Assembly (NCBI GenBank): GCA_013813715.1
Contig: JACCRF010000041.1
Location: 1 to 64,000 of the forward strand
Reading direction: 5' to 3'
DNA length: 64,000 nt
DNA from: Gemmatimonadaceae bacterium
GTDB lineage: Bacteria; Gemmatimonadota; Gemmatimonadetes; Gemmatimonadales; Gemmatimonadaceae
This document shows, piece after piece, positions 11,983 through 28,119 of the stretch (the stretch's first letter is position 1; the number at the start of each line of letters is the position of its first letter). Made by a program: the position numbers and the translations under genes. Below the pieces are notes generated by a model. It was not told the origin of the DNA and made no database searches. It saw only the letters and a program-made list of their open reading frames with translations.

Positions 11983-13473
11983 GTGGGATACGTGCTTCTT
12001 TACTTGCCCTTCGGCGTGGCCTGGCTTCTCCAGGATTCTCCCACCGCGTCGTACGCCGTCGCGTGGACGGGCTCGCTCTTCATAATCTGGGCAACAGTTT
12101 CGGGCAGAGTGCGGCGGCTCCCCCCCGATCGCTCGCTATCACTCCAGCTTTTTCGGCCGATAGTCTTCACGCAGATCGTTTTCGCCGGCTACAACGCTCT
12201 GTCGTCGATTTTCTATTTCGTGTCGCTCAGACAGGAAGAGCTCGCGCTGACTGCGGGCGAGTGGGCTTCTCCGGCACTCGCCGTCACCGCGGAGGCGCAA
12301 AGCTATTACGTCCTCGCTCATGCAGGTGTAGTAACCGGAATTCTGCTGTTGATGGACTACCGCGATTCGGGGCGATTCCGCCTGGTGGGACGCCTTGGCG
12401 CGAACCGGATGCTCATCACCATTGCCGTAGTTTTTTTCGTGGTAACCCTTGGCCTGAGTTTTATTCCCGGGATGAAGCAGGTCACTTTCCGCACCCTGAA
12501 CATCGCCGTCGTTGCGTCTGTTCTCAGCTTCGCGCTCTCCCTCATACACCGTGAGGGAACGCTCATCGTGCTCAACGCGGCGCTGTTCGCCGCCAACTTC
12601 GCTGCTGCGGTGCTCCGTGGATGGAAAGAAGACGTGCTCGTGCTTCTGCTGCTCTTCTTCGCCGCGCTGTTCCCGTATTATCGGCGTGCCACCGTCACCG
12701 TCGGGAGCGTAGCGCTTCTTCTCTTCGTGCTTATTATGCCCGCATACACGAAAGTGTATCGAAGCCTCGCGTGGTACGGCGAGGCGACGCCGGCCGCAGC
12801 GGCGAAGATCGCGTACGACCAGGTGATCTCCGGAAAGATGGACCTGGGCCTGGCGACCGAGGAATTCCTGGAAGGAAGGCTTTCCGAAATCGGGATGTTT
12901 GTCCGTTACATCAACCAGGTTCCGGAGAACCGGCCCTTTTACGGCAGTCAACTCGTGGTGCAAGCGGCGTCGAACCTCGTTCCGCGCATCGTGTGGCAGG
13001 ATAAGCCGAATACCGAGATCGTCGTCATGGAGCGCGTCTATGAGAACGATATCTTCTCACGGCTTGCCATCATTTCCGCAAAGCCGCAGTACGTCGTCGA
13101 CGGTTATCTGAGCGCCGGAATTCTCGGGGTACTCTTCGCATCCATTTTTTACGGTTTGCTTGTGTCTCTAATGTCGCGACTGGCTGAACGCTGGTTCGGC
13201 GGTTACACCTTCGGCAGCGGCCTCGTATACGCGGCGCTGTTTCCCATCTTCTGGCGCGGGAACGCTTTCGAGTTCTTCTTTGGTACGGTTTTCTGGAGTT
13301 TCGTTCTGATGGTGGTGCTTTTCCAGGCCGGACGACGCTTCCATTTTCTCGTTCCCGCCGCGCGTCCGTTGCGGCGCGGCGTCGTACCCGCGTGGAGTGG
13401 AGCTCGAGGCTCGAGCTGGCCGCAGCCAGTCAGCCCGATTCTGCCCGGCGGCCAGTCTCAAGGGCAGCATTGA
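11983..13473 (+). CDS. O-antigen polymerase-like membrane protein (Wzy-type)
   Basis: Polytopic inner-membrane protein of 496 aa with roughly ten to twelve hydrophobic segments, beginning with YVLLYLPFGVAWLL. A longer hydrophilic loop at about residues 260-355 contains NRPFYGSQLVVQAASNLVPR and WQDKP. Such a loop, late in the protein between membrane spans, is typical of bacterial Wzy polymerases and related EpsG-like proteins, which join repeat units in the periplasm. Sequence conservation in this group is poor, so the call rests on topology and context. The start is a GTG at 11983. The stop overlaps the next glycosyltransferase as TTGA. The 40-residue C-terminal tail is rich in Arg, Pro and Gly and probably cytoplasmic. 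Confidence 0.65.
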   Translation: MGYVLLYLPFGVAWLLQDSPTASYAVAWTGSLFIIWATVSGRVRRLPPDRSLSLQLFRPIVFTQIVFAGYNALSSIFYFVSLRQEELALTAGEWASPALAVTAEAQSYYVLAHAGVVTGILLLMDYRDSGRFRLVGRLGANRMLITIAVVFFVVTLGLSFIPGMKQVTFRTLNIAVVASVLSFALSLIHREGTLIVLNAALFAANFAAAVLRGWKEDVLVLLLLFFAALFPYYRRATVTVGSVALLLFVLIMPAYTKVYRSLAWYGEATPAAAAKIAYDQVISGKMDLGLATEEFLEGRLSEIGMFVRYINQVPENRPFYGSQLVVQAASNLVPRIVWQDKPNTEIVVMERVYENDIFSRLAIISAKPQYVVDGYLSAGILGVLFASIFYGLLVSLMSRLAERWFGGYTFGSGLVYAALFPIFWRGNAFEFFFGTVFWSFVLMVVLFQAGRRFHFLVPAARPLRRGVVPAWSGARGSSWPQPVSPILPGGQSQGQH

Positions 13474-14631: not shown

Positions 14632-16422
14632 ATGTGCGGAATTGCCGGCTGGTTCGGCCGTTCGACGGACTGTGAGGCGGGCGCGCTGCTCGAAGCACTT
14701 CGGCATCGCGGACCGGATGGCGAGGGATTCTGGCGCGATCCCGACGGGCGCGCACTGCTCGTCAACACCCGCCTCGCCATTCTCGATCCTTCGCCGGCAG
14801 GGGCGCAACCAATGTCCTGCATCGTGTCAAACCGGGACGGCGCCGAAATGCGGATCGTCTTCAACGGTGCGATCTACAATTTCCGGGAGCTCCGTCGGGA
14901 GCTCGAAGCCGAAGGCGAGACATTTTCGGGCGAGTCGGACACCGAGGTAATGTTGCGCCTGCTGGCGCGCGACGGGCCGGCGGCGCTCCCGCGGCTGGCC
15001 GGAATGTTCGCCTTTGCCCTTTACGACAGCCAATCCGGGCACGCTCTCCTTGGCCGTGACCCTTTCGGAATCAAGCCATTGTACTACGCCGAGGGCGATG
15101 GAACACTCGCGTTCGCATCGGAGGTGAAGGCGCTTCGTGAATGTCTGACGGTGGGAACGGTTTCGTCTCCTGCTGCGTTGAGGGACACTCTCGTTTGGGG
15201 AAGTGTTCCCGAACCGTCGACCGTGGTGGACGGCGTGCGTACCCTCCCGGCGGGCTGTTTCCTGGAATGGGATGGCACGAGCGCCAGAATCGCGCGCTGG
15301 CATCACATCGAGTTCCGCGACTCTTCGCCGCCGTTGAACGCGGCGACCGCCACGCGCGCGGCTCTGCTCGAGTCGGTTCAGCGCCATCTCGTGAGTGATG
15401 TTCCGCTGGGAATCTTTCTCAGCGGGGGTATGGATTCCACCGCTATTCTGGCCCTTACCCGAGAGTCACTTGGCCGGAACGCCGACATCCGCACATTCTC
15501 CATCGGTTTCGCCGACGCCGCTTATGACGAGTCGGCGATTGCGCGGCGAACCGCTGCGCACTTCGGCGCCACCCACACGGAGTGGAAGATGAGCGCCGCC
15601 GAGGTTCGAGATCAGACCGCAGGCTATGTCGCTGCGATGGATCAGCCGACGATAGACGGATTGAATACGCTGAGCATCAGCAAGCTCGCCCGAACACATG
15701 GTGTCAAAGTCGCGTTCTCGGGCCTTGGAGGCGATGAAATGTTCGGCGGATACGGCTCATTCCGGAACATTCCCCGCCTGGTTCGCATGCACAGTTTTCT
15801 CGGACCCTTGCGCTCGGTCGCGGCTGCGGCGCTCGATCGGGCTCGGCCGGGCTCCCGGTGGAGGCGGCTCGCGGAATTCTTCGACGGTGACGGGGGCTCG
15901 CTGTCAGCGTTTCATGCGCAACGAGGGATTTTCACGGAGGCCGAAGCGCGCGAGCTCGTGCGCGGTCTGACCGGCGATGATCCGGGCCCGGCGGACTGGT
16001 CGTTTGGTGCCCTGCCTGCCGACCTCCGGGACACGGCCAGCCTGCTCGAGATCACGCGATACATGCGCAACCAGTTGCTTCGCGATTCCGACGTGTTCAG
16101 CATGGCCAGCGGAGTCGAGCTGCGCGTTCCATTCGTGGATGCGCGGTTGTTCGACGCGATATCCGCGATTCCTGCAGAGGTGCGGCTCGAGAGAGGCAAA
16201 CAGCTTCTATTCGACGCGGTGCCTGAGATTCCGGTTTGGGTGCGGGAGCAGCCGAAGCGTGGATTCATGTTCCCTTATGAGCTGCTCAGCGATGAGTTCG
16301 CAGAAATGGCGGCAGATCAGAGGGCGACGGTCCCGATGGTCACGTGGTACCGCCGGTGGGCATTCGCGGCGGTGGCAAACGCCGCCGAGCAGATCCCACG
16401 GCCGGCGCCCGCGATTCTTTGA
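14632..16422 (+). CDS. asnB: Asparagine synthase (glutamine-hydrolysing)-type amidotransferase
   Basis: Two-domain AsnB-family protein of 596 aa. The N-terminal class II glutaminase starts MCGIAGWFG, with the catalytic Cys2 exposed after Met removal. The C-terminal synthetase domain has the pyrophosphate loop SGGMDSTA at about residue 264 and the SGLGGDEMFGGY segment. The length and both active sites look intact. AsnB-like proteins are common in polysaccharide loci, where they are thought to amidate a sugar carboxyl group or another acid instead of aspartate. The uronic acid made by the WbpB/D/E set would be a possible substrate. Its position between two glycosyltransferases argues against housekeeping asparagine synthesis. 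Confidence 0.85.
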   Translation: MCGIAGWFGRSTDCEAGALLEALRHRGPDGEGFWRDPDGRALLVNTRLAILDPSPAGAQPMSCIVSNRDGAEMRIVFNGAIYNFRELRRELEAEGETFSGESDTEVMLRLLARDGPAALPRLAGMFAFALYDSQSGHALLGRDPFGIKPLYYAEGDGTLAFASEVKALRECLTVGTVSSPAALRDTLVWGSVPEPSTVVDGVRTLPAGCFLEWDGTSARIARWHHIEFRDSSPPLNAATATRAALLESVQRHLVSDVPLGIFLSGGMDSTAILALTRESLGRNADIRTFSIGFADAAYDESAIARRTAAHFGATHTEWKMSAAEVRDQTAGYVAAMDQPTIDGLNTLSISKLARTHGVKVAFSGLGGDEMFGGYGSFRNIPRLVRMHSFLGPLRSVAAAALDRARPGSRWRRLAEFFDGDGGSLSAFHAQRGIFTEAEARELVRGLTGDDPGPADWSFGALPADLRDTASLLEITRYMRNQLLRDSDVFSMASGVELRVPFVDARLFDAISAIPAEVRLERGKQLLFDAVPEIPVWVREQPKRGFMFPYELLSDEFAEMAADQRATVPMVTWYRRWAFAAVANAAEQIPRPAPAIL

Positions 16423-17613: not shown

Positions 17614-18870
17614 TCATCGTTTCGCGTGTCCGTCGTATCGCTCCAGAATGCCGATGGCGAGAGCGTTGTAGTCAGGATTCGACGCCTCGTAGCCCGGAGT
17701 TGCCATTCCTCCGGCCGTCCCGTAAAGAGAAGGGAATCGGTCGCCGGCGAGAGAAATTCGAGTCGTATATGCGAGCGCGCCGAGTCCGGTGAGCGTGAAC
17801 CAAAGCAGATAGGCAGTGAAGGCGAGGCGCACTTTCCGGCGGTCGGCAAGCTCACGCACGAATGGCGCCGCGTGCCTGATTAATAGAGGGATTGCGGGCA
17901 TCCACAGCCGTACATCGTGGTGTGGCCAGATGAAGAGGATCGCCAGGAACGCCGCCAAGTAGACGCCGGCCGGTCCTGGCGGCCCTCGCCGCCGCGTCGC
18001 AAGCAACACCAGCAAAACGGCTGGCGCTCCAATCCAGGCGAACAGCGGATTGATTATCTGGAACTTCGAGCCGGGGAGATTCGTCGCGAGCTCGCCAAAC
18101 CCGTGCAACATGCCGGGGCCGCGGCGCAGCAGGTGCGCCCACAGGCTGTATTCGCCATATATCCAGCCAGCCTCGTCGAGATATGCGACGATGGGTTGCC
18201 TGACTGACGGTGACGTGAAAAGCGCAAACAGCAGCACGCACCCCAAGACCGCTGCGGCCACCTTGACCCTTCTGCTCGCCGCGCGGTGCTGCTTTGCCGC
18301 GAGCACGCACGCCCAGATGAGCGCGGGCACCAGTGCCATGCCGATGGTGCGAATGCTGATGGCGAATGCCGTCAGCAGGAAACCGGCAAGAAGCAACGCT
18401 ATCTGCCTCAAGCCATTTGGCCTGGTACTCGCGCACATGGCAGCGACGGCGAGTAGCGATACGCCGAAGTACGCGGCTTCCGGCAATGGCATCGCTGCGC
18501 TGCGCACGACGGGGACCGCGAGAAGCGCCAGACATAGAGTCCACCGCCGGTCGTTATCGGAACGCCAGCCCGGGAGGTGCCACAAAGCGAGGATGCCCGC
18601 GCCGAGGAAGGCGCAGTTTGCGAGGATAAACCAGAATGTGGCTCCAAGCCCGGCTCGATCCAGAAGGGCCAGGATTGCCGGGTATCCGACAGGAAATCCA
18701 ACGGGAGGCGGCGGCAGGCCATCGGCGAGACTGGTCACGATCTGGAAATAGCGGACGGCGTCACTATTGAGGCGAAGGCGGGTGGCTGTCTGAAGGAGGT
18801 ACACGGCAGCCAGTCCGCCAAGTGCTACTCTGAAGATCAGGGTCCCGCGATCCAGCGTCCTCGAATCCAT
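17614..18870 (-). CDS. Polytopic membrane protein, GT-C-like (ArnT/PMT-type fold suspected)
   Basis: Integral membrane protein of about 418 aa with roughly nine or ten hydrophobic segments. After the first span comes RLRLNSDAVRYFQIVTSLA. An acidic residue in the first periplasmic loop, followed by an aromatic residue, is usual in GT-C transferases that use polyprenyl-phosphate sugars. The PVGFPVGYPAILALL segment fits the same pattern. I cannot assign a family with certainty. The ATG at 18870 overlaps the stop of the MauE-thioredoxin gene as TGATG, and a GTG lies one codon upstream. The two are probably one operon. It ends facing the heptamer repeat. Confidence 0.6.
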   Translation of the reverse strand: MDSRTLDRGTLIFRVALGGLAAVYLLQTATRLRLNSDAVRYFQIVTSLADGLPPPPVGFPVGYPAILALLDRAGLGATFWFILANCAFLGAGILALWHLPGWRSDNDRRWTLCLALLAVPVVRSAAMPLPEAAYFGVSLLAVAAMCASTRPNGLRQIALLLAGFLLTAFAISIRTIGMALVPALIWACVLAAKQHRAASRRVKVAAAVLGCVLLFALFTSPSVRQPIVAYLDEAGWIYGEYSLWAHLLRRGPGMLHGFGELATNLPGSKFQIINPLFAWIGAPAVLLVLLATRRRGPPGPAGVYLAAFLAILFIWPHHDVRLWMPAIPLLIRHAAPFVRELADRRKVRLAFTAYLLWFTLTGLGALAYTTRISLAGDRFPSLYGTAGGMATPGYEASNPDYNALAIGILERYDGHAKR

Positions 18871-19847
18871 CACGAAACGCTGGACGGGGCGGCCCTTTCC
18901 TTTCGAGAAGTTTCGGCAGCCTCTGGGAAGAAGGCCTGCCTGAACCGCTCAAAAAAATCCGAGGGCATGGGCCCCACCCATACTCTCTGGATTCGGCCGG
19001 CGTCGACGAGCACAGTCGTCGGAACCGCCTCAGCAAGGTGGCCCATCAGCGTCTGCGAAACCGACGCCATCTGAAACCGGATGCCGCGCTGATTGACGAA
19101 TGTCTCGAGCCGTTCCGTGGACGTGGCCACCACACCCACAACCGTCGGAAGGACTGGAGACTGATCGACGGCATTAAGCACTCTGACCCACTGCTGGCAA
19201 TGCGGGCAGGCCTGACCCAGGTAGGATACCAGAACCTCCCCGTTAACTCCTCGTGTCGCCGAACCTGCCCAGGAGTGTCGCCAGCGCCGTCCCACTTTGA
19301 GGCGGGTCGTGTCGAGCAGGGGACGGCCATGCCTTGCGTTGAAGCGCTGCGTCCACGCCGCGAGCGCGACTGCCGAGAGGGTCGCCCCGAGAACCGCTAC
19401 CTGTTGCAAGGATGTGAACTGGGTGTCGCGGGCGCGATCGAGTGCCCCAACCACGAGGCAGGCGAACAGGAAGTTCAGTCCCACGCTCTGTCCAATCGAC
19501 GGTCGTATGAATCCGCCGTAGCACCCGCAATCCGACACGCGTCCGCTGTGTACGCCCCACCAGCTCGCCGCCGAGAGAACACACAGCAGGATGAGCGTCA
19601 CAGGAAGAACGACGCTCGGCGCAGCGCCGAGGAGGAGCGCCACTCCCCAACCTGCTTCCAAGCCCGCGGCTGCCGTGACGGCGGTCGCGAGCAGACTGTT
19701 CGGAACCCACCCGAGGTTCGCCAGGTGGCGGAAAAAGGTGTGGGGCGTTATTGCCTTGATCACCGCTGTCCACAGAAAGACAGCGCCCACAATGCGCGGG
19801 CCAAACGCAAACCAATCAAGACTCGCAACGTTCGGAATGAGCGTCAT
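18870..19847 (-). CDS. MauE/DoxX-like membrane domain fused to a thioredoxin-fold domain
   Basis: Protein of 325 aa. Residues 14-166 contain about five hydrophobic segments and the motif D106-C-G-C109 followed by YGG. That cysteine pair before a Gly-rich turn is the hallmark of MauE-type proteins. Residues 200-310 look like a thioredoxin fold, with C214-P-H-C217 as the redox pair and VPTTVLVDAGRI carrying the expected cis-proline. Five spans with the N-terminus inside would place the thioredoxin domain in the periplasm. In methylamine utilisation, MauE and MauD are separate proteins needed for the disulfide-rich small subunit of the dehydrogenase. Here equivalents are joined. The gene is divergent from a cassette that ends in a ten-cysteine protein. 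Confidence 0.75.
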   Translation of the reverse strand: MTLIPNVASLDWFAFGPRIVGAVFLWTAVIKAITPHTFFRHLANLGWVPNSLLATAVTAAAGLEAGWGVALLLGAAPSVVLPVTLILLCVLSAASWWGVHSGRVSDCGCYGGFIRPSIGQSVGLNFLFACLVVGALDRARDTQFTSLQQVAVLGATLSAVALAAWTQRFNARHGRPLLDTTRLKVGRRWRHSWAGSATRGVNGEVLVSYLGQACPHCQQWVRVLNAVDQSPVLPTVVGVVATSTERLETFVNQRGIRFQMASVSQTLMGHLAEAVPTTVLVDAGRIQRVWVGPMPSDFFERFRQAFFPEAAETSRKERAAPSSVS

Positions 19848-19937
19848 GCAGATAGCTTTTGAAGGATAATGCGGAAATCCACGCTGCGAGCGGCAACGAA
19901 CTCGATCGGGCGGACTACCTCGTCTTCACACTGATCG
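19848..19937. promoter_or_regulatory. Divergent intergenic region of the peptide-maturation cassette
   Basis: These 90 bases separate the MauE-thioredoxin gene (minus) from the nucleotidyltransferase gene (plus), so promoters for both must lie here or inside the genes. No strong -35/-10 pair is evident. A 21-codon frame from an ATG at 19870 has no coding support. The arrangement suggests joint control of the two arms. Confidence 0.35.
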
Positions 19938-21107
19938 ATGTTGCCTGAGACTGAGCTCGTCAAAGCGCTTTGCCGTGCACCGCTTTCGACCGCGGCGAAA
20001 CAGCGGATCGGTGCACTGCTCGAAAGCCCCCTCGACTGGAACGCAATTTTCGCTCTGGCCGCACGATGGGAGCTCGAGCCTGTTGTGTTCTCAAATCTAC
20101 GTTCACAGTATCATGAAGCAATCCCGAAGCACGTTATCTCGAGAGTCATTGACCGGGGGCGCGAATCACGGGCATTCGCTCTTTCCCGTACGCTGATCAT
20201 GGTCGAACTTGTAAAGCGCTTCGAGGATGCGGGGATCGCTGTGATCGTGTTGAAGGGCCCGGCAGTTGCGATCGCTGCCTATGGTGATCCGTCGCTGCGC
20301 ACCTTCGGCGACATGGATCTACTCTTAAAAAAAGGCGACATGGTGGCGGGAAGGGAGCTGCTGCTCTCGAGTGGCTACGCGCGCGACTATGATGCGGTCG
20401 TCGAAGACTGTCTGATTCGCGACCAGCACGCACTGGAATTCTCCGGACCGCGGGCGAAGGTGGAGCTGCACTGGACTCTCCTTTCGCGCCATCTCAGGCT
20501 GGATTTCAACGTGGATGAACTTTGGGGCTCCGCGCGTCGGATCCAGGGCGCCGGAGCGGAGATGCGCGTCCTCGCGCCACATCACTCTTTTCTGTTTCTC
20601 TGCGCACACGGCGCGAAGCACGAATGGCTGCGGCCAAGATGGATGTGTGACGTCGCGCAGCTCTCCGTTCGTCTCTCGCACGAGGAGGCGAAGCAGGTCA
20701 TGCAACTGGCCGACAGCACCCACTCGAGACGAATCCTCGCCCTTGGGCTCCGGGTCGCGCGGGATGTCCTGGGCGCCGACGATTCACCATTCGATCCGAA
20801 CCTTCTCGTTCCGGAAGCAGACACGCGCCGGCTTGTAGACAAGGCGCGGAAACAACACGATGCGGGAGATCCCAGCCCCATGAACGGCAGCGCGGTGCCG
20901 CAATCCTCGTTTTCCCGTCTGGAGCCTGGCCTCCCCGCGCTCCTCTATTGGGCCAGCGCGCGCGAGCGCAGGCTCGATCAGGTCGCATGCATCGCGCGCG
21001 TTTTTTTCGTACCCACGGAGAAGGACAGAGGGCCTCGCGTCGTCGGCTGGCTGCTGCGTCCCCTGCGCCTTGCAGTGCGTGCCGCACGAACGGTGGTTGC
21101 GAGGTGA
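19938..21107 (+). CDS. Nucleotidyltransferase-family protein (NTP_transf_5 type)
   Basis: Protein of 389 aa. The core motif LKGPAVAIAAYGDPSLRTFG continues as DMDLLL, with K106 and the acidic pair D125/D127. This is the minimal nucleotidyltransferase signature of the uncharacterised NTP_transf_5 family. The region HALEFSGPRAKVELHWTL and LCAHGAKHEWLRPRW also match that family. Such genes often sit beside HprK-like kinases and PqqD-like proteins, in lasso-peptide clusters and in other unexplained clusters, and the same trio occurs here. The substrate is unknown. It could nucleotidylate a peptide or a small molecule. The stop overlaps the kinase start (TGATG), so the two are co-translated. Confidence 0.75.
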   Translation: MLPETELVKALCRAPLSTAAKQRIGALLESPLDWNAIFALAARWELEPVVFSNLRSQYHEAIPKHVISRVIDRGRESRAFALSRTLIMVELVKRFEDAGIAVIVLKGPAVAIAAYGDPSLRTFGDMDLLLKKGDMVAGRELLLSSGYARDYDAVVEDCLIRDQHALEFSGPRAKVELHWTLLSRHLRLDFNVDELWGSARRIQGAGAEMRVLAPHHSFLFLCAHGAKHEWLRPRWMCDVAQLSVRLSHEEAKQVMQLADSTHSRRILALGLRVARDVLGADDSPFDPNLLVPEADTRRLVDKARKQHDAGDPSPMNGSAVPQSSFSRLEPGLPALLYWASARERRLDQVACIARVFFVPTEKDRGPRVVGWLLRPLRLAVRAARTVVAR

Positions 21108-21937
21108 TGCCACCGTCCCGCCTATCCCCAGTTGACCCTTCCGAGACGAGTGAGCTTTACATCGAGTTCGACGGAGCACAGTTGGTTGTGAAGACTGACG
21201 ATCCGGAGGCCCGCGACTACTTCCGGCGCCATTTCCTGCACATGCTCGTTCCGCGCGTTACCGCGAGCGTTGGGGATCTCGAAATTCTGCGCTGCGAGTC
21301 CGGCTACACACTTCGAAGCGCCGAAACCAGGAACTTGCCGCGGGTCAAACTCGAGTCGCTTCTTCCTCTGGCAAAAGATGAGGTCCGTCTCCAGTTCATG
21401 CGGTCGCGTCCGGACTTGCTGTGGCTCCATGCCGGAGCCGTGGAACGGCATGGAACGGCCATTCTTCTCGCCGGACCCTCTGGCCAGGGGAAAAGCACTC
21501 TCGCCACTCTGCTTTGCGAGCGAGGCTGGAGCCTTCTGTCGGACGATATCGCTCCAGTTCGAATGGATGCTGACGAAGTACTTCCTTTCGCGCAGTGCCC
21601 GGTTCGGAGGATCCCTCCTGGACGCGAGGTGCAGCCGAACGAAGTCCTCGCACTCGACCGGCAGCCGGTGCCGATCGACGCCGAGTGCATCCGCTGCGAT
21701 CCCGTGCGGATCGGGGGCATTGTCTTCCTTAGATTCACCCACGGCGCCTCGACGGAGCTGTCGCGGTTGACGCGCGGCGCGGCGGCTTTCGAGATGCTGC
21801 GCAACGCGACGAATTTCGTCGACCACAAAAAAGAGGGCGTCAGGCGAGCCGCTGAAATGGCACGCGCATTACCTGCCTTCAGACTGATCTACGGGTCCCC
21901 GAAGGACGCCGTTCCGCACCTCGATACGCTCGCATGA
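21107..21937 (+). CDS. HprK-related serine kinase-like protein
   Basis: P-loop kinase-like protein of 276 aa. The Walker A motif GPSGQGKST lies at about residues 123-131 and is preceded by WLHAGAVERHGTAILLA, the strand and turn found in HPr kinase relatives. An acidic SDDIAP follows at about 145-150. The protein is shorter than true HPr kinase/phosphorylase and lacks its N-terminal domain, as in the HprK-like kinases of peptide clusters that phosphorylate a precursor peptide. The ATG at 21107 overlaps the previous stop, and the upstream open frame to 20948 is shadow. The probable substrate is the Cys-rich PqqD fusion just downstream, but this is inference. Confidence 0.75.
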   Translation: MPPSRLSPVDPSETSELYIEFDGAQLVVKTDDPEARDYFRRHFLHMLVPRVTASVGDLEILRCESGYTLRSAETRNLPRVKLESLLPLAKDEVRLQFMRSRPDLLWLHAGAVERHGTAILLAGPSGQGKSTLATLLCERGWSLLSDDIAPVRMDADEVLPFAQCPVRRIPPGREVQPNEVLALDRQPVPIDAECIRCDPVRIGGIVFLRFTHGASTELSRLTRGAAAFEMLRNATNFVDHKKEGVRRAAEMARALPAFRLIYGSPKDAVPHLDTLA

Positions 21938-22177
21938 ATGGCCAGAAACTTGCTTGATCGCCGACGAGTGCGATGTTGCAGCCCAACGAATGTCAGCGAG
22001 CGCACCCGGGTCACTTAATGAATTCCGAGAAGCTCAACCGGTAACGCTTTGGTAAATCTCAGACTTTTCGTTAGCGGGCGGGCGAAATTTTTGTTTGCGC
22101 ATGGGCGTCCCGGGTGTAATTTTATCTGTCGTCGAGAGTCGAATGCATTCGCTCAACCTTTGACCCTGGTATCTAGC
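21938..22177 (+). promoter_or_regulatory. Leader region before the PqqD-Cys-rich gene
   Basis: The stretch is richer in A/T than its surroundings, especially at 22060-22125. The segment TTTGCG (22094-22099) and TAATTT (22117-22122), 17 bases apart, is a weak but possible -35/-10 pair. The frame is open from 22049, but the translation there does not look like protein. The gene may therefore have its own promoter, separate from the kinase gene. Confidence 0.35.
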
Positions 22178-22750
22178 ATGAAATCGCTTCCTGGCATCAG
22201 ATCTGGCTTGTTGCGGCACCCGCTCGACCAGCAGGTGCTCGTATATGACTCGCGTGACGATCGCGTGCATCTGCTCGATCCCACTACTGCCTGCGTGCTC
22301 GACCTGCTCGAGGAGGGCGGCTGGACCCGCGAGGGCATCAGCGCCGAACTGGCTGTGCGACTGAACGTGACGCCGAGTGATGGGTTCCTGTCGCTGGCAC
22401 TGGACGAGCTTCGAAAGGCGGACCTGCTCGACGAGCGGGTGACGGCGCCCTCGCCGCTCGCCGACGTCAATCGCCGCGAGCTGGTGCGAAAGCTGGCGAT
22501 GACAGGTGCAGCAGCGTTCCTCATCCCCACAGTGATGACGCTTGCGGCGACCCCTGGATATGCTCAGGGAACGCTGTCGCCCAACTGCGCTCCGTGCACC
22601 GCCGACGCACAATGCGCGATTGGTAATTGCAACAATTTCGGTGCATGCAGCGAAAACAACGGCGACAGACCGACCGGCGGAGACTGCTCCGGGGTTGGCG
22701 GGGGGGCCTGCTGCTCGGGCGTTTGTTTGAACAACACCACCTGCGCCTAA
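22178..22750 (+). CDS. PqqD-like domain fused to a Tat-like segment and a ten-cysteine knottin-like tail
   Basis: Protein of 190 aa with three parts. Residues 10-87 resemble the PqqD winged-helix peptide-binding domain, with QQVLVYDSRDDRVHLLDPTT followed by a helix-rich end. Residues 99-130 read RRELVRKL, a hydrophobic run AMTGAAAFLIPTVMTLAA and TPGYAQ, which looks like a twin-arginine signal ending at a cleavage-type site but placed inside the protein. Residues 137-189 hold ten cysteines (C137, 140, 146, 151, 157, 170, 178, 179, 183, 189). The end pattern C-x7-CC-x3-C-x5-C resembles inhibitor-knot peptides. Start ATG at 22178 is chosen because the PqqD domain begins right after it. No family of this architecture is known to me. 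A fused leader-binding domain and exported cargo is the simplest reading. Confidence 0.8.
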   Translation: MKSLPGIRSGLLRHPLDQQVLVYDSRDDRVHLLDPTTACVLDLLEEGGWTREGISAELAVRLNVTPSDGFLSLALDELRKADLLDERVTAPSPLADVNRRELVRKLAMTGAAAFLIPTVMTLAATPGYAQGTLSPNCAPCTADAQCAIGNCNNFGACSENNGDRPTGGDCSGVGGGACCSGVCLNNTTCA

Positions 22751-22836
22751 GAACTGTCCTCGTCGCGCGATCATTGATCTTCGGTGGCGTGACGGGGGCG
22801 GCTGTCGACTACCCTGTAGAAGCGCTTTCTGGTTTT

Positions 22837-22868
22837 AGCCCCATCCCACACCCGGGGTGGGGCTTTTT
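22837..22868 (+). terminator. Rho-independent terminator after the Cys-rich gene
   Basis: AGCCCCATCCC (22837-22847) pairs with GGGGTGGGGCT (22854-22864) to form an 11-base-pair stem with one G-T pair and a six-base loop. Five T residues follow directly (22864-22868). It lies 87 bases after the stop at 22750 and is the clearest terminator in the window. It marks the end of the peptide cassette. Confidence 0.9.
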
Positions 22869-23058: not shown

Positions 23059-23841
23059 ATGCTCGACTTCCACAACCATCTCATGCCCGCCGTTGACGAC
23101 GGCGCGGTCGACATCGACGAATCGCGGGTCGGGTTCGAGATGCTGCGCAGTCAGGGCGTCCGCGAAATCATCACCACTCCGCACCTGCGCGGATCTCTTA
23201 CCGACCGCCCGCGAGAGCTGAAGGGGTTTCTTACCGCGCTCGATGAAGCATGGGGATTACTCGAGGCGCTCGCCGATTCAGAGTTCCCGGACATCCGCAT
23301 CGAGCGCGGCGTCGAGCTGATGCTGGACATTCCGCGACCGAACCTCGATGACCCGAGGCTCCGTCTCGCCGGTACTTCGTACGCCCTCGTCGAGTTCCCG
23401 TTCATGGCGGTGCCCCCACACAGCACTCTTGCCATCCGGAATATCACCGAGAGCGGGTGGGTTCCCGTCATCGCGCACCCCGAGCGATACGCCAACATGC
23501 CTGAGAATTACGATCTGGTGAACGACTGGCGGGATGCCGGCGCCTTCATCCAGGTCAATTCGGGCTCGCTGCTCGGCTACTACGGCGCCGGTCCCCGCCG
23601 GCTCGCCTGGGCGCTACTCCAAACGGGGAGCGCCGACTACCTGTCGAGCGATTACCACTCGCGCGGCAAGTGCGCTGTCGCTCAGTGCGCTGACGTCTTG
23701 AAAGGCGCTGGAGGAGTCGTTCAGCATCGTGCTCTCACGGTCACGAATCCGCGGCGGCTCCTGGCCAACCAGTCGCCCATACCCGTTCCCCCGCTTGAAA
23801 GCGGCGAACCTCCGCTCTGGAAGCGCATGCTTCCCTGGTGA
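23059..23841 (+). CDS. PHP-type protein-tyrosine phosphatase, CpsB/YwqE family
   Basis: Metal-dependent phosphatase of 260 aa that in other bacteria removes phosphate from the tyrosine kinase controlling polysaccharide chain length and export. The PHP metal-binding motifs are visible: FHNHLMPAVDDGA with H5 and H7, TTPHLRG, VIAHPERY and SSDYHSRGK. The length is usual. No matching BY-kinase (Wzc/CpsD) is encoded in the window, so its partner lies elsewhere. It stands alone after the terminator with about 190 bases of spacer in front, and its end is three bases from the end of a convergent gene. Confidence 0.9.
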   Translation: MLDFHNHLMPAVDDGAVDIDESRVGFEMLRSQGVREIITTPHLRGSLTDRPRELKGFLTALDEAWGLLEALADSEFPDIRIERGVELMLDIPRPNLDDPRLRLAGTSYALVEFPFMAVPPHSTLAIRNITESGWVPVIAHPERYANMPENYDLVNDWRDAGAFIQVNSGSLLGYYGAGPRRLAWALLQTGSADYLSSDYHSRGKCAVAQCADVLKGAGGVVQHRALTVTNPRRLLANQSPIPVPPLESGEPPLWKRMLPW

Positions 23842-23844
23842 CGC

Positions 23845-25194
23845 TCACGGTCGCTGAATGTCCGCCACGACCGCATCCGCCACAATTCGGTATCCGTCCT
23901 CGCTATAGTGCGAACGCCTCCAGATCCAGAACGACAGCGGATCGGCGTGCCCCGAAAAAACCGCAGCAACGTCCGTTACGGGGATGTTCGCGGCGCGGAC
24001 GCGCCGCATCACTTCACGGTGCACAGCGGCGGGATCGTGTTCCTCGCCGAGCGACGTTGCCATCCGCCGGTCGTACCGGCGCCGCTCGGGGAGATACACG
24101 AAGTGTAATCTGCCGCCCCACGACTCCACCTCGCCTTTAACAATCCGGAAAATCGAGCCGAGTCGGTCGTAGTCGTGCCTTGGAGTGGCGGGCCGCTCAC
24201 TCGCATCGAGGCTGAGCGCGGTCCGGAGCCCGCGAAGGAGCAGCACCCTCCGAAGTTTCTCCTGCGTGGTGAAGCGCCGCGGGCCGGCGGCGATCACCGA
24301 ATCCCCATACCTGGCGAGCGCGCTGTCTATCTCGCGGCCGCGCGCGGACAATCCCTGCGTGAACGTAGAGTCCTCGTAGCGCGCCATCGGCGCGAGTGCT
24401 TCGGCGGCGAGGTCCTCCATGTCGTTGCCCTCGTAGAAGAACCATACGACTGTGTGCGGCCGCTTCTCGCGCACGTACTCGCGTATCGCCGCCAGCTCGG
24501 ACAGTGGCCCTGCACCGGCAACGCCGACGTTCAGTGTGCGCGGAATTGCCCGCCGTATGAGCGCAGCGAGCTGCCGCCCAGGCGCGACGCATTCACCGTG
24601 CACGAACGAATCACCGACGAGGGCGACATCGATGGAGTCGCTCCAGATTCCGGGCGGATTGTTGAATCCCCGCTCATCGCTCTCATAGATCACGTCAGTA
24701 CCGCTCTCGTTGCAAAGCAGCGTCACCGCTCTCGAGATCCCGCCCAGCGGGACAATCGGGAAGCGCTCATGCCTCCGCACGCCAGCGATCGGGGAATCGC
24801 CGTAATCGAATTCCTTTGGCGGTAGAAAGGGATACGCTCGAATCCCCTTCGCGCGGAGACCGGAGACGGCAGTGGCCCGGTTGTCGCGCCAGACCACCCG
24901 CGTTCCCATGAGATCGAGCTCCTGCCTGTCCGGGACGGTGAGCATCAGCTCTGCCGCGACCACGGCGAGCGCGACGGGAACGATCATCGTGACAAGCGTC
25001 ACCTGAACGCTTCCCGCCATTTTCGACGCGACGAGGAGCGTTGCGGCGACGACGAGCGGGATACCCAATACCATAACGCTTCTACCGGCGCCGAGCGACG
25101 CGCCGAAATGGTACGCGCCGTAGGCAACGGCAAGAAGGAGATAAAGGCCGCCAGTGCGCAGCACAAAGCCCGCAAAGCGCTCGGCTCTCGGCAT
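23845..25194 (-). CDS. Membrane-anchored SGNH/GDSL hydrolase
   Basis: Protein of about 449 aa. Three to four hydrophobic segments in the first 110 residues anchor it in the membrane. They are followed by a hydrolase domain with ALVGDSFVHGECVAPG (nucleophile Ser), the FFYEGNDMED block and SHYSEDGYRIVADAV (catalytic His in the last block). This is the SGNH layout of esterases and O-acetyl or O-acyl transferases acting on glycans. ATG at 25194 is chosen. The longer frame to 25302 would overlap the next gene upstream. The DUF5989 gene directly upstream is a usual companion of such SGNH proteins. Confidence 0.8.
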   Translation of the reverse strand: MPRAERFAGFVLRTGGLYLLLAVAYGAYHFGASLGAGRSVMVLGIPLVVAATLLVASKMAGSVQVTLVTMIVPVALAVVAAELMLTVPDRQELDLMGTRVVWRDNRATAVSGLRAKGIRAYPFLPPKEFDYGDSPIAGVRRHERFPIVPLGGISRAVTLLCNESGTDVIYESDERGFNNPPGIWSDSIDVALVGDSFVHGECVAPGRQLAALIRRAIPRTLNVGVAGAGPLSELAAIREYVREKRPHTVVWFFYEGNDMEDLAAEALAPMARYEDSTFTQGLSARGREIDSALARYGDSVIAAGPRRFTTQEKLRRVLLLRGLRTALSLDASERPATPRHDYDRLGSIFRIVKGEVESWGGRLHFVYLPERRRYDRRMATSLGEEHDPAAVHREVMRRVRAANIPVTDVAAVFSGHADPLSFWIWRRSHYSEDGYRIVADAVVADIQRP

Positions 25195-25228
25195 TGGTGG
25201 CGTCACGCCCGGATCGATTGCGATGGGC

Positions 25229-25498
25229 TCAGGACGAACGCGGAGGACCAGCGGCTGAGGCCCTCGGAACCGCAGGGGCCGATCGACGCAGAGCACGAGC
25301 AAAAGCCGACAAACGCGCAGCAGGCTTGTACGTCGCCTCTGGCGCGGTCTGGCTGTAGATGAAGGGCGCCAGTGCCGAGCGCTGCGAAACCATGAAAAGC
25401 AGCAGAGCCAGGGCGAAGAAGAAAATCAGCAGTGGAAGGAGCCACAGGCGCTTCTGCGTTCGCAGAAACGTGCCCAGCCCAGAAAAAAAGGATTTCAT
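25229..25498 (-). CDS. DUF5989-family single-span membrane protein
   Basis: Small protein of 89 aa. It starts MKSFFSGLGTFLRTQKRLW, then has a hydrophobic span LLPLLIFFFALALLLFMV and the family end APFIYSQ. Known DUF5989 proteins stop soon after the PFIY block. This one continues for about 35 residues rich in Ala, Arg and Pro, which may be a real tail or a misplaced stop. Relatives usually sit between a carbamoyltransferase and an SGNH hydrolase gene in glycan or natural-product loci. Only the SGNH partner is present here. Its function is unknown. Confidence 0.75.
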   Translation of the reverse strand: MKSFFSGLGTFLRTQKRLWLLPLLIFFFALALLLFMVSQRSALAPFIYSQTAPEATYKPAARLSAFARALRRSAPAVPRASAAGPPRSS

Positions 25499-26661: not shown

Positions 26662-28119
26662 ATGCTCTTCAACTCCTTCACATTCCTGATTTTCTTCCCG
26701 GTCGTGGTGACGATCTACTTCGTCATTCCCCACCGTTACCGCTGGACGTGGCTGCTTGCCGCGAGCTGCTACTTCTACATGGCGTTCATCCCGGTCTACA
26801 TCCTGATCCTGTTCTTCACCATCGGGATTGATTATGTCGCGGGGATACTGATTGAGAACGCGGAGGGTAAGCGGCGGAAATCATTTCTGGTGATGAGTAT
26901 TGTTGCGAACGTCGGCGTTCTCGCCGTCTTCAAGTACTTCAACTTCCTGAACGCCAACGCCGAAGCCATCGCCGCGGTGTTCAAGTGGCCGTACGGAATT
27001 CCCGCGCTCGATCTCATCCTTCCGATCGGCCTCTCGTTCCACACGTTCCAGGCGATGAGCTACACGATCGAGGTGTACCGCGGCCGCCAGCCGGCCGAGC
27101 GCCACCTCGGCATTTACGCTTTGTATGTGATGTTCTTTCCCCAGCTCGTGGCCGGTCCCATCGAGCGCCCGCAGAATCTGCTTCCTCAGCTCTATCAGAA
27201 GCACGTCTTCGAGTACGACCGCGTCGCGAACGGGCTCAGACGGATGGCCTGGGGTCTGTTCATGAAAGTCGTCATCGCCGATCGCCTCGCGCGCTACGTG
27301 AACCCCGTGTACAACGACATCGGCAGCTTCGAAGGACTCACGCTCGTCCTTGCGACGGTGTTTTTCGCGTTCCAGATCTACTGCGACTTCGCGGGCTATT
27401 CGCACATGGCCATCGGCGCTGCCGAGGTGATGGGGTTCCGGCTGATGCGCAACTTCAACCGGCCGTACCTCTCGCAGTCAATTGCCGAGTTCTGGTCGCG
27501 CTGGCACATCTCGCTGTCTACGTGGTTCCGCGATTACGTCTACATCCCGCTCGGCGGAAACCGCGTGGCCGTGCCGCGCTGGTATTTGAACCTGTTCGTG
27601 ACATTTCTGCTCAGCGGCCTCTGGCACGGCGCGAACTGGACGTTCGTGATATGGGGGGCGCTCAACGGCTTCTACCTGATCATGTCGCTCGTCACGGCCG
27701 GTATCCGCGGTCGCATCGCCGCGGTGGTCGGTCTCGTGCGGCATCCCAACGCGCACGCGGCGCTGAGAGTGCTCGTGACGTTCGGGCTCACCTGTGTGGC
27801 GTGGGTGTTCTTCCGCGCAAACTCGCTTGGTGACGCGCTGCACGCATTCACCGGGGCTATCGCGCGGCCCACGTTGCACCAGGTGCTGCCCGACATACTG
27901 CGCGCCGAGGGAATCACGAAGCTCGAGGTGGCGTACTCGGCGATGTTGATCGTCGCGCTGATCCTGTTCGAGATCATACAGAGGCGGGTGAACGTGCCGC
28001 GGCTGTTCGAGGCGCAGCCGGCATGGGTTCGATGGCCGGCGTACTATGCCGCGTGCATGGCCATCTGGCTGTTCGGTATCAGCGGGGAAGCGAAGGCCTT
28101 CATCTACTTCCAGTTCTGA
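26662..28119 (+). CDS. MBOAT-family O-acyltransferase (AlgI/DltB-like)
   Basis: Integral membrane acyltransferase of 485 aa with about ten or more membrane spans, starting MLFNSFTFLIFFPVVV, the classic AlgI-type N-terminus. The family core FWSRWHISLSTWFRDYVYIP and the catalytic histidine in LSGLWHGANWTFVIWG are intact. AlgI-type proteins pass an acyl group across the membrane so that a periplasmic partner can place it on a polysaccharide. The partner is likely the SGNH-like protein encoded 91 bases downstream. The enzyme probably O-acetylates the locus product, and the acyl donor is inferred. Confidence 0.93.
   Translation: MLFNSFTFLIFFPVVVTIYFVIPHRYRWTWLLAASCYFYMAFIPVYILILFFTIGIDYVAGILIENAEGKRRKSFLVMSIVANVGVLAVFKYFNFLNANAEAIAAVFKWPYGIPALDLILPIGLSFHTFQAMSYTIEVYRGRQPAERHLGIYALYVMFFPQLVAGPIERPQNLLPQLYQKHVFEYDRVANGLRRMAWGLFMKVVIADRLARYVNPVYNDIGSFEGLTLVLATVFFAFQIYCDFAGYSHMAIGAAEVMGFRLMRNFNRPYLSQSIAEFWSRWHISLSTWFRDYVYIPLGGNRVAVPRWYLNLFVTFLLSGLWHGANWTFVIWGALNGFYLIMSLVTAGIRGRIAAVVGLVRHPNAHAALRVLVTFGLTCVAWVFFRANSLGDALHAFTGAIARPTLHQVLPDILRAEGITKLEVAYSAMLIVALILFEIIQRRVNVPRLFEAQPAWVRWPAYYAACMAIWLFGISGEAKAFIYFQF

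Follow-up and report, generated by a model that had tools for sequence, protein, structure and literature searches.

What product would be made by a locus in which genes for a kinase, a nucleotidyltransferase and a thioredoxin-like membrane protein stand beside a short reading frame that ends in ten cysteines? This question is raised by positions 18870-22864 of the window, which is the 64,000-nucleotide stretch at the start of contig JACCRF010000041.1 from a Gemmatimonadaceae bacterium (assembly GCA_013813715.1). A preliminary description of the letters alone had placed five features there within 4 kb (a MauE-thioredoxin fusion, an NTP_transf_5 nucleotidyltransferase, an HprK-like kinase, a PqqD-type protein with a Tat-like segment and Cys-rich tail, and a terminator), and all five are present. 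The gene set most likely belongs to the machinery for phosphorylated ribosomal peptides, of which it would be a new variant. At a probability of roughly 60%, the 190-residue PqqD-type protein is a precursor resembling those of ribosomally synthesized and post-translationally modified peptides (RiPPs): it is fused to a RiPP recognition element (RRE), modified by the kinase and the NTP_transf_5 enzyme, exported by the twin-arginine translocation (Tat) pathway, and rich in disulfides. The features of the module are as follows.

18870-19847, minus strand: MauE-thioredoxin fusion (PF07291, 53.3 bits; ResA profile match, E 6.8e-8; CGC and CxxC kept in full-length homologues)
19848-19937, no strand: divergent intergenic region between the MauE-thioredoxin and NTP_transf_5 genes, a possible shared control region (from gene coordinates)
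19938-21107, plus strand: NTP_transf_5 nucleotidyltransferase, by context the counterpart of PsmN (lasso) and LppN (linear polyphosphorylated peptides, LPPs) (PF14907, 180.8 bits; adjoins HprK and RRE protein genes in most homologous loci)
21107-21937, plus strand: predicted HprK-like peptide kinase with His (LHAG), Lys (GKST) and Asp-Asp (SDD) (TIGR04352, 86 bits; H-K-D-[DE] across homologues; solved relatives are HPr kinases)
22178-22750, plus strand: putative RRE-Tat-core precursor of 190 residues (TIGR04353, 32.9 bits; AlphaFold model; about 30 homologues)
22178-22441, plus strand: RRE (PqqD-like) domain, residues 1-88 (pLDDT >90; VIA-align Z 11.1 to lasso B1 proteins 5v1v and 6jx3)
22472-22564, plus strand: Tat-like signal, residues 99-129, with RRELV, a hydrophobic stretch and a GYA cleavage-type site (twin-Arg conservation; genome encodes TatC and one signal peptidase I)
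22517-22534, plus strand: FLIPTV at the position of the RRE recognition motif, Pro117 invariant (Pro and V/I at +2 in 30/30; split homologues have [YW]xxPx[LVIFA] here)
22568-22747, plus strand: predicted core peptide, residues 131-190, with 10 Cys, and Thr132 (22571-22573) in a conserved Ser/Thr column (translation; even Cys counts; Ser/Thr column)
22837-22864, plus strand: intrinsic terminator, an 11-bp stem followed by a T-run (hairpin scan of the window)

The 190-residue protein is composed of a PqqD-like part, a Tat-like segment (NRRELVRKLAMTGAAAFLIPTVMTLAATPGYAQG) and the ten-Cys tail. The PqqD-like part is, by its predicted fold, an RRE. In the AlphaFold model, the N-terminal ~80-87 residues have pLDDT mostly >90 and form three strands followed by three helices (E11-15, E20-24, E29-33, H35-46, H51-62 and H68-80). 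The best structural matches of this domain are lasso B1 proteins with leader peptide (5v1v and 6jx3; Z 11.1 over 83-84 residues), and PqqD itself (5sxy) ranks behind them at Z 8.2. Because of this match, the domain is read as an RRE despite a score of 14.1 bits against PF05402, which lies under the gathering score of 23.4; homologues pass PF05402. Structure searches with both predicted models, that of the window and that of a homologue at locus L058, returned matches dominated by the RRE part.

The twin arginine of the Tat-like signal is kept in 24 of 24 aligned homologues and is replaced by RK in one further, Cys-tailed homologue (L109:5249-6364). The window precursor reaches 11.7 bits against the generic TAT model TIGR01409, below the cut-off of 16.7. 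TatC is present in the genome, and a single match to Peptidase_S26 (PF10502), the sole signal-peptidase model tried, lies on another contig. Across the aligned signal segments, a proline is found in 30/30, a valine or isoleucine at +2 in 30/30, and a serine or threonine two positions further on in 28/30. The fused forms carry this pattern as LxxPx[VI] within the hydrophobic stretch, with FLIPTV in the window. The fused forms lack the aromatic residue of YxxP, and the change from YxxP to LxxP has been reported as a variant of the RRE motif (PMC12710340).

Split relatives carry the motif in its aromatic form. In loci L068-L071 and L072, which belong to two other families, the RRE is encoded on its own, and a short Tat-type peptide has its own gene beside HprK; the standalone RRE of L070 scores 48.4 bits against TIGR04353, above the cut-off of 35. 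All five split Tat peptides contain [YW]xxPx[LVIFA] (YTAPAV, YSAPLV, YAAPLV, YTAPLV and WAVPAI) at the position of LxxPx[VI] in the fused forms, against a background of 1.9% among other hydrophobic segments in the loci, and they count as about two independent observations because four of the five are closely related. The motif [Y/W]xxPx[L/V/I/F/A] is the one bound by discrete lasso RREs (PMC13381572). In split loci L068, L069, L071 and L073 (e.g., L069:9973-11292), a class-I-type S-adenosylmethionine (SAM) methyltransferase-like reading frame is found next to the standalone RRE and the Tat peptide or HprK gene, or between them, which suggests another modification.

Approximately 30 tails were examined, and the number of cysteines is even (2, 6, 8 or 10) in all 20 intact tails that bear them. 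Ten-Cys tails are found in the window and L017, while eight-Cys tails with an internal CC and a final C...C are found in L021, L057-L060, L062 and L107-L109. The L018 tail has six cysteines in the knottin-like spacing C-x6-C-x6-CC-x4-C-x10-C, and that of L087 is similar. One tail matches tachystatin A at 18.6 bits, below the threshold of 25. The Cys-rich tail thus recurs in homologues and, as had been proposed, looks like an export substrate. Tandem RRE-Tat precursors with differing tails occur in L023, L024, L065 and L108; the tails of L023 and L024 include Asn/Gln-rich (e.g., QGQNNNNQGPNQQ) and short ones. At L020:606-1062, a frame-disrupted RRE-Tat precursor with 3 Cys lies beside a MauE fragment at the contig end and is either a decayed gene or an assembly error.

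Conservation of the leader above that of the core is a hallmark of RiPPs. Among the closest four proteins, identity is 50-70% in the leader vs 13-44% in the core, with 70% vs 44% for the window and L017 and 62% vs 38% for the two copies in genome G196. A conserved leader with a variable core has been reported for LPP precursors (PMC13381572). The column just past the cleavage-type site holds Ser or Thr in 29 of 30 rows (Ser 25, Thr 4), the remaining row being shifted by one, whereas Ser and Thr together make up 14% of the tails. In the LPP system, the kinase LppK phosphorylates core Ser3, just past the cleavage site, in AQSNWK (PMC13381572).

The four genes occur together in other genomes more often than chance would give. 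The samples comprised 250 genomes of the order and 390 of the phylum. The PqqD-tail protein is found in 10/250 genomes of the order and the MauE-thioredoxin fusion (MauE-Trx) in 5/250, all five among those 10 (hypergeometric 3e-8, uncorrected for kinship). Within the window's genus, three sampled genomes have both proteins and 10 have neither. Full-length MauE-Trx is confined to those same five among the 390 phylum genomes. All four genes stand together in L018, L019, L026 and L087, and L020, at a contig edge, holds a partial set of MauE and precursor. L087, a contig of Gemmatimonadetes bacterium nzgw227, is the sole new locus from a scan of genome contigs with MauE-Trx; the same kind of scan with the PqqD-Cys protein found no relative. 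Both across the phylum and in a second family, RRE-Tat proteins usually have HprK and NTP_transf_5 as neighbours, and the gene order is often HprK, precursor, NTP_transf_5. The preliminary description had named two outcomes as fatal to the idea of a system, namely that the four genes are not found together elsewhere or that every homologue lacks the tail; neither was observed.

As the preliminary description had supposed, the Cys-rich protein is probably the substrate of both the kinase and the nucleotidyltransferase, with precedents in LppK, PadeK/PsmK and PsmN (PMC13381572, PMC9266682). The H-K-D-[DE] pattern is kept across the kinase homologues, whose solved-structure relatives are HPr kinases, and the His-Lys-Asp-Asp set is needed in lasso kinases (PMC9266682). 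The nucleotidyltransferase had been called divergent; at 180.8 bits against a PF14907 cut-off of 31.2, it is not especially so. A search of solved structures with this protein gave no match. By analogy, a role for NTP_transf_5 on a phosphorylated peptide is likely but unproven, since PsmN is reported to put a hexose on phospho-Ser (PMC9266682) and LppN was inactive in its test host (PMC13381572).

A working mechanism can be drawn from these parts. The N-terminal RRE (residues 1-88) would bind a motif centred on Pro within the hydrophobic part of the Tat signal next to it (FLIPTV; YxxPxV/WxxPxI in split relatives) and recruit the HprK-like kinase. The core would then be phosphorylated, most likely at the conserved Ser/Thr just past the signal-peptidase site, and NTP_transf_5 would add a sugar or nucleotidyl group onto the phosphate, comparable to the hexose of PsmN. 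Until modification is complete, the RRE may mask the signal in the manner of a Tat proofreading chaperone. The peptide would be exported by Tat and its leader removed by the general signal peptidase, and MauE-Trx would help disulfides to form in the Cys-rich core. Tat proofreading chaperones (TorD and DmsD, for instance) bind Tat signals and hold back export until maturation is done; the RRE would likewise bind the signal and delay export, but it has an unrelated fold and would act in cis.

It is a more tentative proposition, possible rather than probable, that the module represents a new RiPP class in which the precursor's own RRE binds the Tat signal, core phosphorylation (with sugar or nucleotide transfer) licenses export, signal peptidase cuts the leader, and the product is cystine-knot-like and decorated. 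Among open-licence papers, literature searches returned nothing on HPr-rel-A, on PqqD paired with an HprK-related kinase or a twin-arginine motif, or on an RRE combined with a Tat signal or joined to a precursor, and an RRE that reads a Tat signal and licenses export is absent from the literature searched. If correct, this proposal would give an example of an RRE that is attached in cis to the substrate it recognizes and also controls export, which would link RiPP biology to Tat quality control. It would also point to Gemmatimonadota as a source of exported mini-proteins that are rich in disulfides and phosphorylated or glycosylated. The order PqqD domain, RR, LxxPx[VI]x[ST], cleavage site, S/T and Cys-rich tail offers a searchable hallmark, and what NTP_transf_5 enzymes do to phosphorylated peptides becomes directly testable.

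Several observations weigh against the RiPP-like reading. The window kinase scores 86.1 bits against TIGR04352 (cut-off 200), with the P-loop and His...Lys...Asp-Asp present, and the 190-residue protein at 32.9 bits does not reach the TIGR04353 cut-off of 35. The Tat motif lies ~98 residues from the N-terminus, which is unusual, and the Tat-like segment might simply anchor the protein in the membrane. In the window model, the signal segment is not docked on the RRE; the L058 model has a short strand at 123-126 after the invariant Pro, at pLDDT ~70. Cys-free tails, either N/Q-rich or K/R-rich, exist in the same precursor family. The candidate phosphosite in the window is Thr instead of Ser, and the phosphosite there is uncertain because the S3T variant of LppA is not phosphorylated (PMC13381572). 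MauE-Trx is absent from the 8-Cys operons, and its charge distribution would put the thioredoxin domain and CGC loop in the cytoplasm.

MauE-Trx consists of a transmembrane MauE domain with DCGCYGG (PF07291, gathering score 27) and a TlpA/ResA-like thioredoxin domain with CPHC, nearest to ResA/StoA. Its CxxC varies among homologues (CPHC, CPYC, CPFC and CAHC). A cytoplasmic thioredoxin would imply oxidation before Tat export if MauE-Trx is an oxidant; the positive-inside charge rule behind this placement is crude. Its proposed role as oxidation partner has a correlation behind it: MauE-Trx always goes with Cys-rich tails, yet most Cys-rich loci outside the window's family are without it, and a strict coupling of the two is rejected on account of the 8-Cys operons. 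A role as oxidant of the Cys-rich core is plausible. Homologues of mauE have been tied to candidate precursors with at least 8 Cys (PMC7794033). An orphan full-length MauE-Trx (L083:9951-10913, G098) lies among unrelated genes, away from kinase, NTP_transf_5 and precursor.

The module is neither lasso nor LPP proper, but the claim that it is not a known RiPP class misses that paeninodin-like lasso peptides and LPPs are already known to use an HprK-like kinase, NTP transferase and RRE as their kit, and the module works like both in using them. The preliminary description was therefore partly right: it saw a real system and guessed the substrate correctly, while it overlooked this kit and overstated the role of MauE-Trx. 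The LPP RiPPs of Bacillota (PMC13381572) share the kinase, NTP transferase and RRE, a variable core behind a conserved leader that is removed in the manner of a signal peptidase, a Ser close to the cleavage site, a frequent position in capsule loci and the lack of a cyclase. They differ in having a discrete RRE, here fused to the precursor and split only in other families; a YxxPxVLxHQ leader rather than FLIPTV in a Tat-like one; and a co-encoded archaeal-type SpI peptidase, LppS, whereas no LppS-like gene was found in the locus here (PF10502 being the sole model tried). The Cys-rich core and MauE-Trx are further differences, and LPP proper is rejected on the RRE, LppS and leader. The NCBIfam HPr-rel-A system (TIGR04352/TIGR04353) is matched by the kinase and PqqD-like protein, and the standalone RRE of a split relative passes its cut-off, but the window proteins fall below and have the RRE fused to a Tat signal and Cys-rich tail. 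The decRiPPter mauE-containing Streptomyces candidates (PMC7794033) likewise pair a MauE homologue with a neighbouring precursor that has at least 8 Cys; they are unverified and not reported with this kinase, NTP transferase or RRE-Tat fusion, and MauE is here fused to thioredoxin.

Other readings of the module weigh the same parts differently. Paeninodin/pseudomycoidin-type lasso clusters (PadeK, PsmK, PsmN; PMC9266682) share the His-Lys-Asp-Asp kinase, nucleotidyltransferase and B1-fold RRE as tailoring genes, and an asparagine-synthase-like gene ~2.5 kb from MauE-Trx (14632-16422) might serve as the cyclase of a divergent lasso-peptide cluster. This is highly improbable and is rejected: the module has no B2 protease or lasso cyclase, and the AsnB-like gene, outside the conserved module, scores as an asparagine synthase (395.9, cut-off 267.1) rather than a lasso cyclase (134, cut-off 525). 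Transglut_core3 (the B2 leader protease) has no match in the bacterium's own genome (~97% complete), which largely refutes a lasso product. The phosphosite here would also be near the core N-terminus, whereas in those lasso peptides it is a C-terminal Ser. It is improbable, though less so, that the RRE is a relic, the protein a Cys-rich Tat substrate whose N-terminal extension is inert, and the neighbours active on other targets; loss of the YxxP aromatic residue in fused forms fits this, but the invariance of Pro and V/I in 30 sequences, the better-conserved leader and the partner genes kept across the phylum speak against it.

The remaining two explanations give the peptide a different function. 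An exported metal-binding peptide, like RRE-linked DUF2282 peptides, would hold envelope metal on thiols kept reduced by MauE-Trx. The ResA/StoA-type relatives of the thioredoxin domain, the varying CxxC dipeptide and the pairing of DUF2063 RREs with Sec-signal DUF2282 precursors (PMC12710340) favour this idea, but it is unlikely given the even Cys counts, CC-containing cystine-knot-like spacing, sub-threshold tachystatin A match, and N/Q-rich and K/R-rich tails in the same family; it also leaves the kinase and NTP transferase unexplained. Slightly less likely again, the peptide might be a structural or anchoring piece of an exopolysaccharide, phosphosugar-linked to the glycan by those two enzymes. 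CpsB and other exopolysaccharide genes surround the module in the window, L018, L020 and L087, PsmN is reported to hexosylate phospho-Ser (PMC9266682), and LPP and paeninodin loci are often within capsule loci (PMC13381572), but the homologous operon L058, from another family of the same class, adjoins ribosomal protein genes.

Because of L058, an exopolysaccharide context is not required for such operons, and its necessity is rejected. The glycan locus that had been described is real in the window and not intrinsic to the system. By window profile matches, the surroundings are an exopolysaccharide locus, with CpsB directly downstream (23059-23841) and an exosortase-Y-type Wzy-like protein at 11983-13473 (461 bits, NCBIfam cut-off 420). 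Within the module, the kinase start overlaps the NTP_transf_5 stop as ATGA (21107). MauE-Trx is divergently transcribed and thus not in one transcript with NTP_transf_5, kinase and precursor; the terminator said to close the unit was found. A scan of the module area, including intergenic region 19848-19937, found no sigma-70-like promoter, and the window yielded no Rfam families or tRNAs. A large minus-strand protein near the module (23845-25302) has no NCBIfam match. A DltB-like MBOAT protein is also encoded nearby (26662-28119), and a DltB-like gene is close to the module in L018, L020 and L087.

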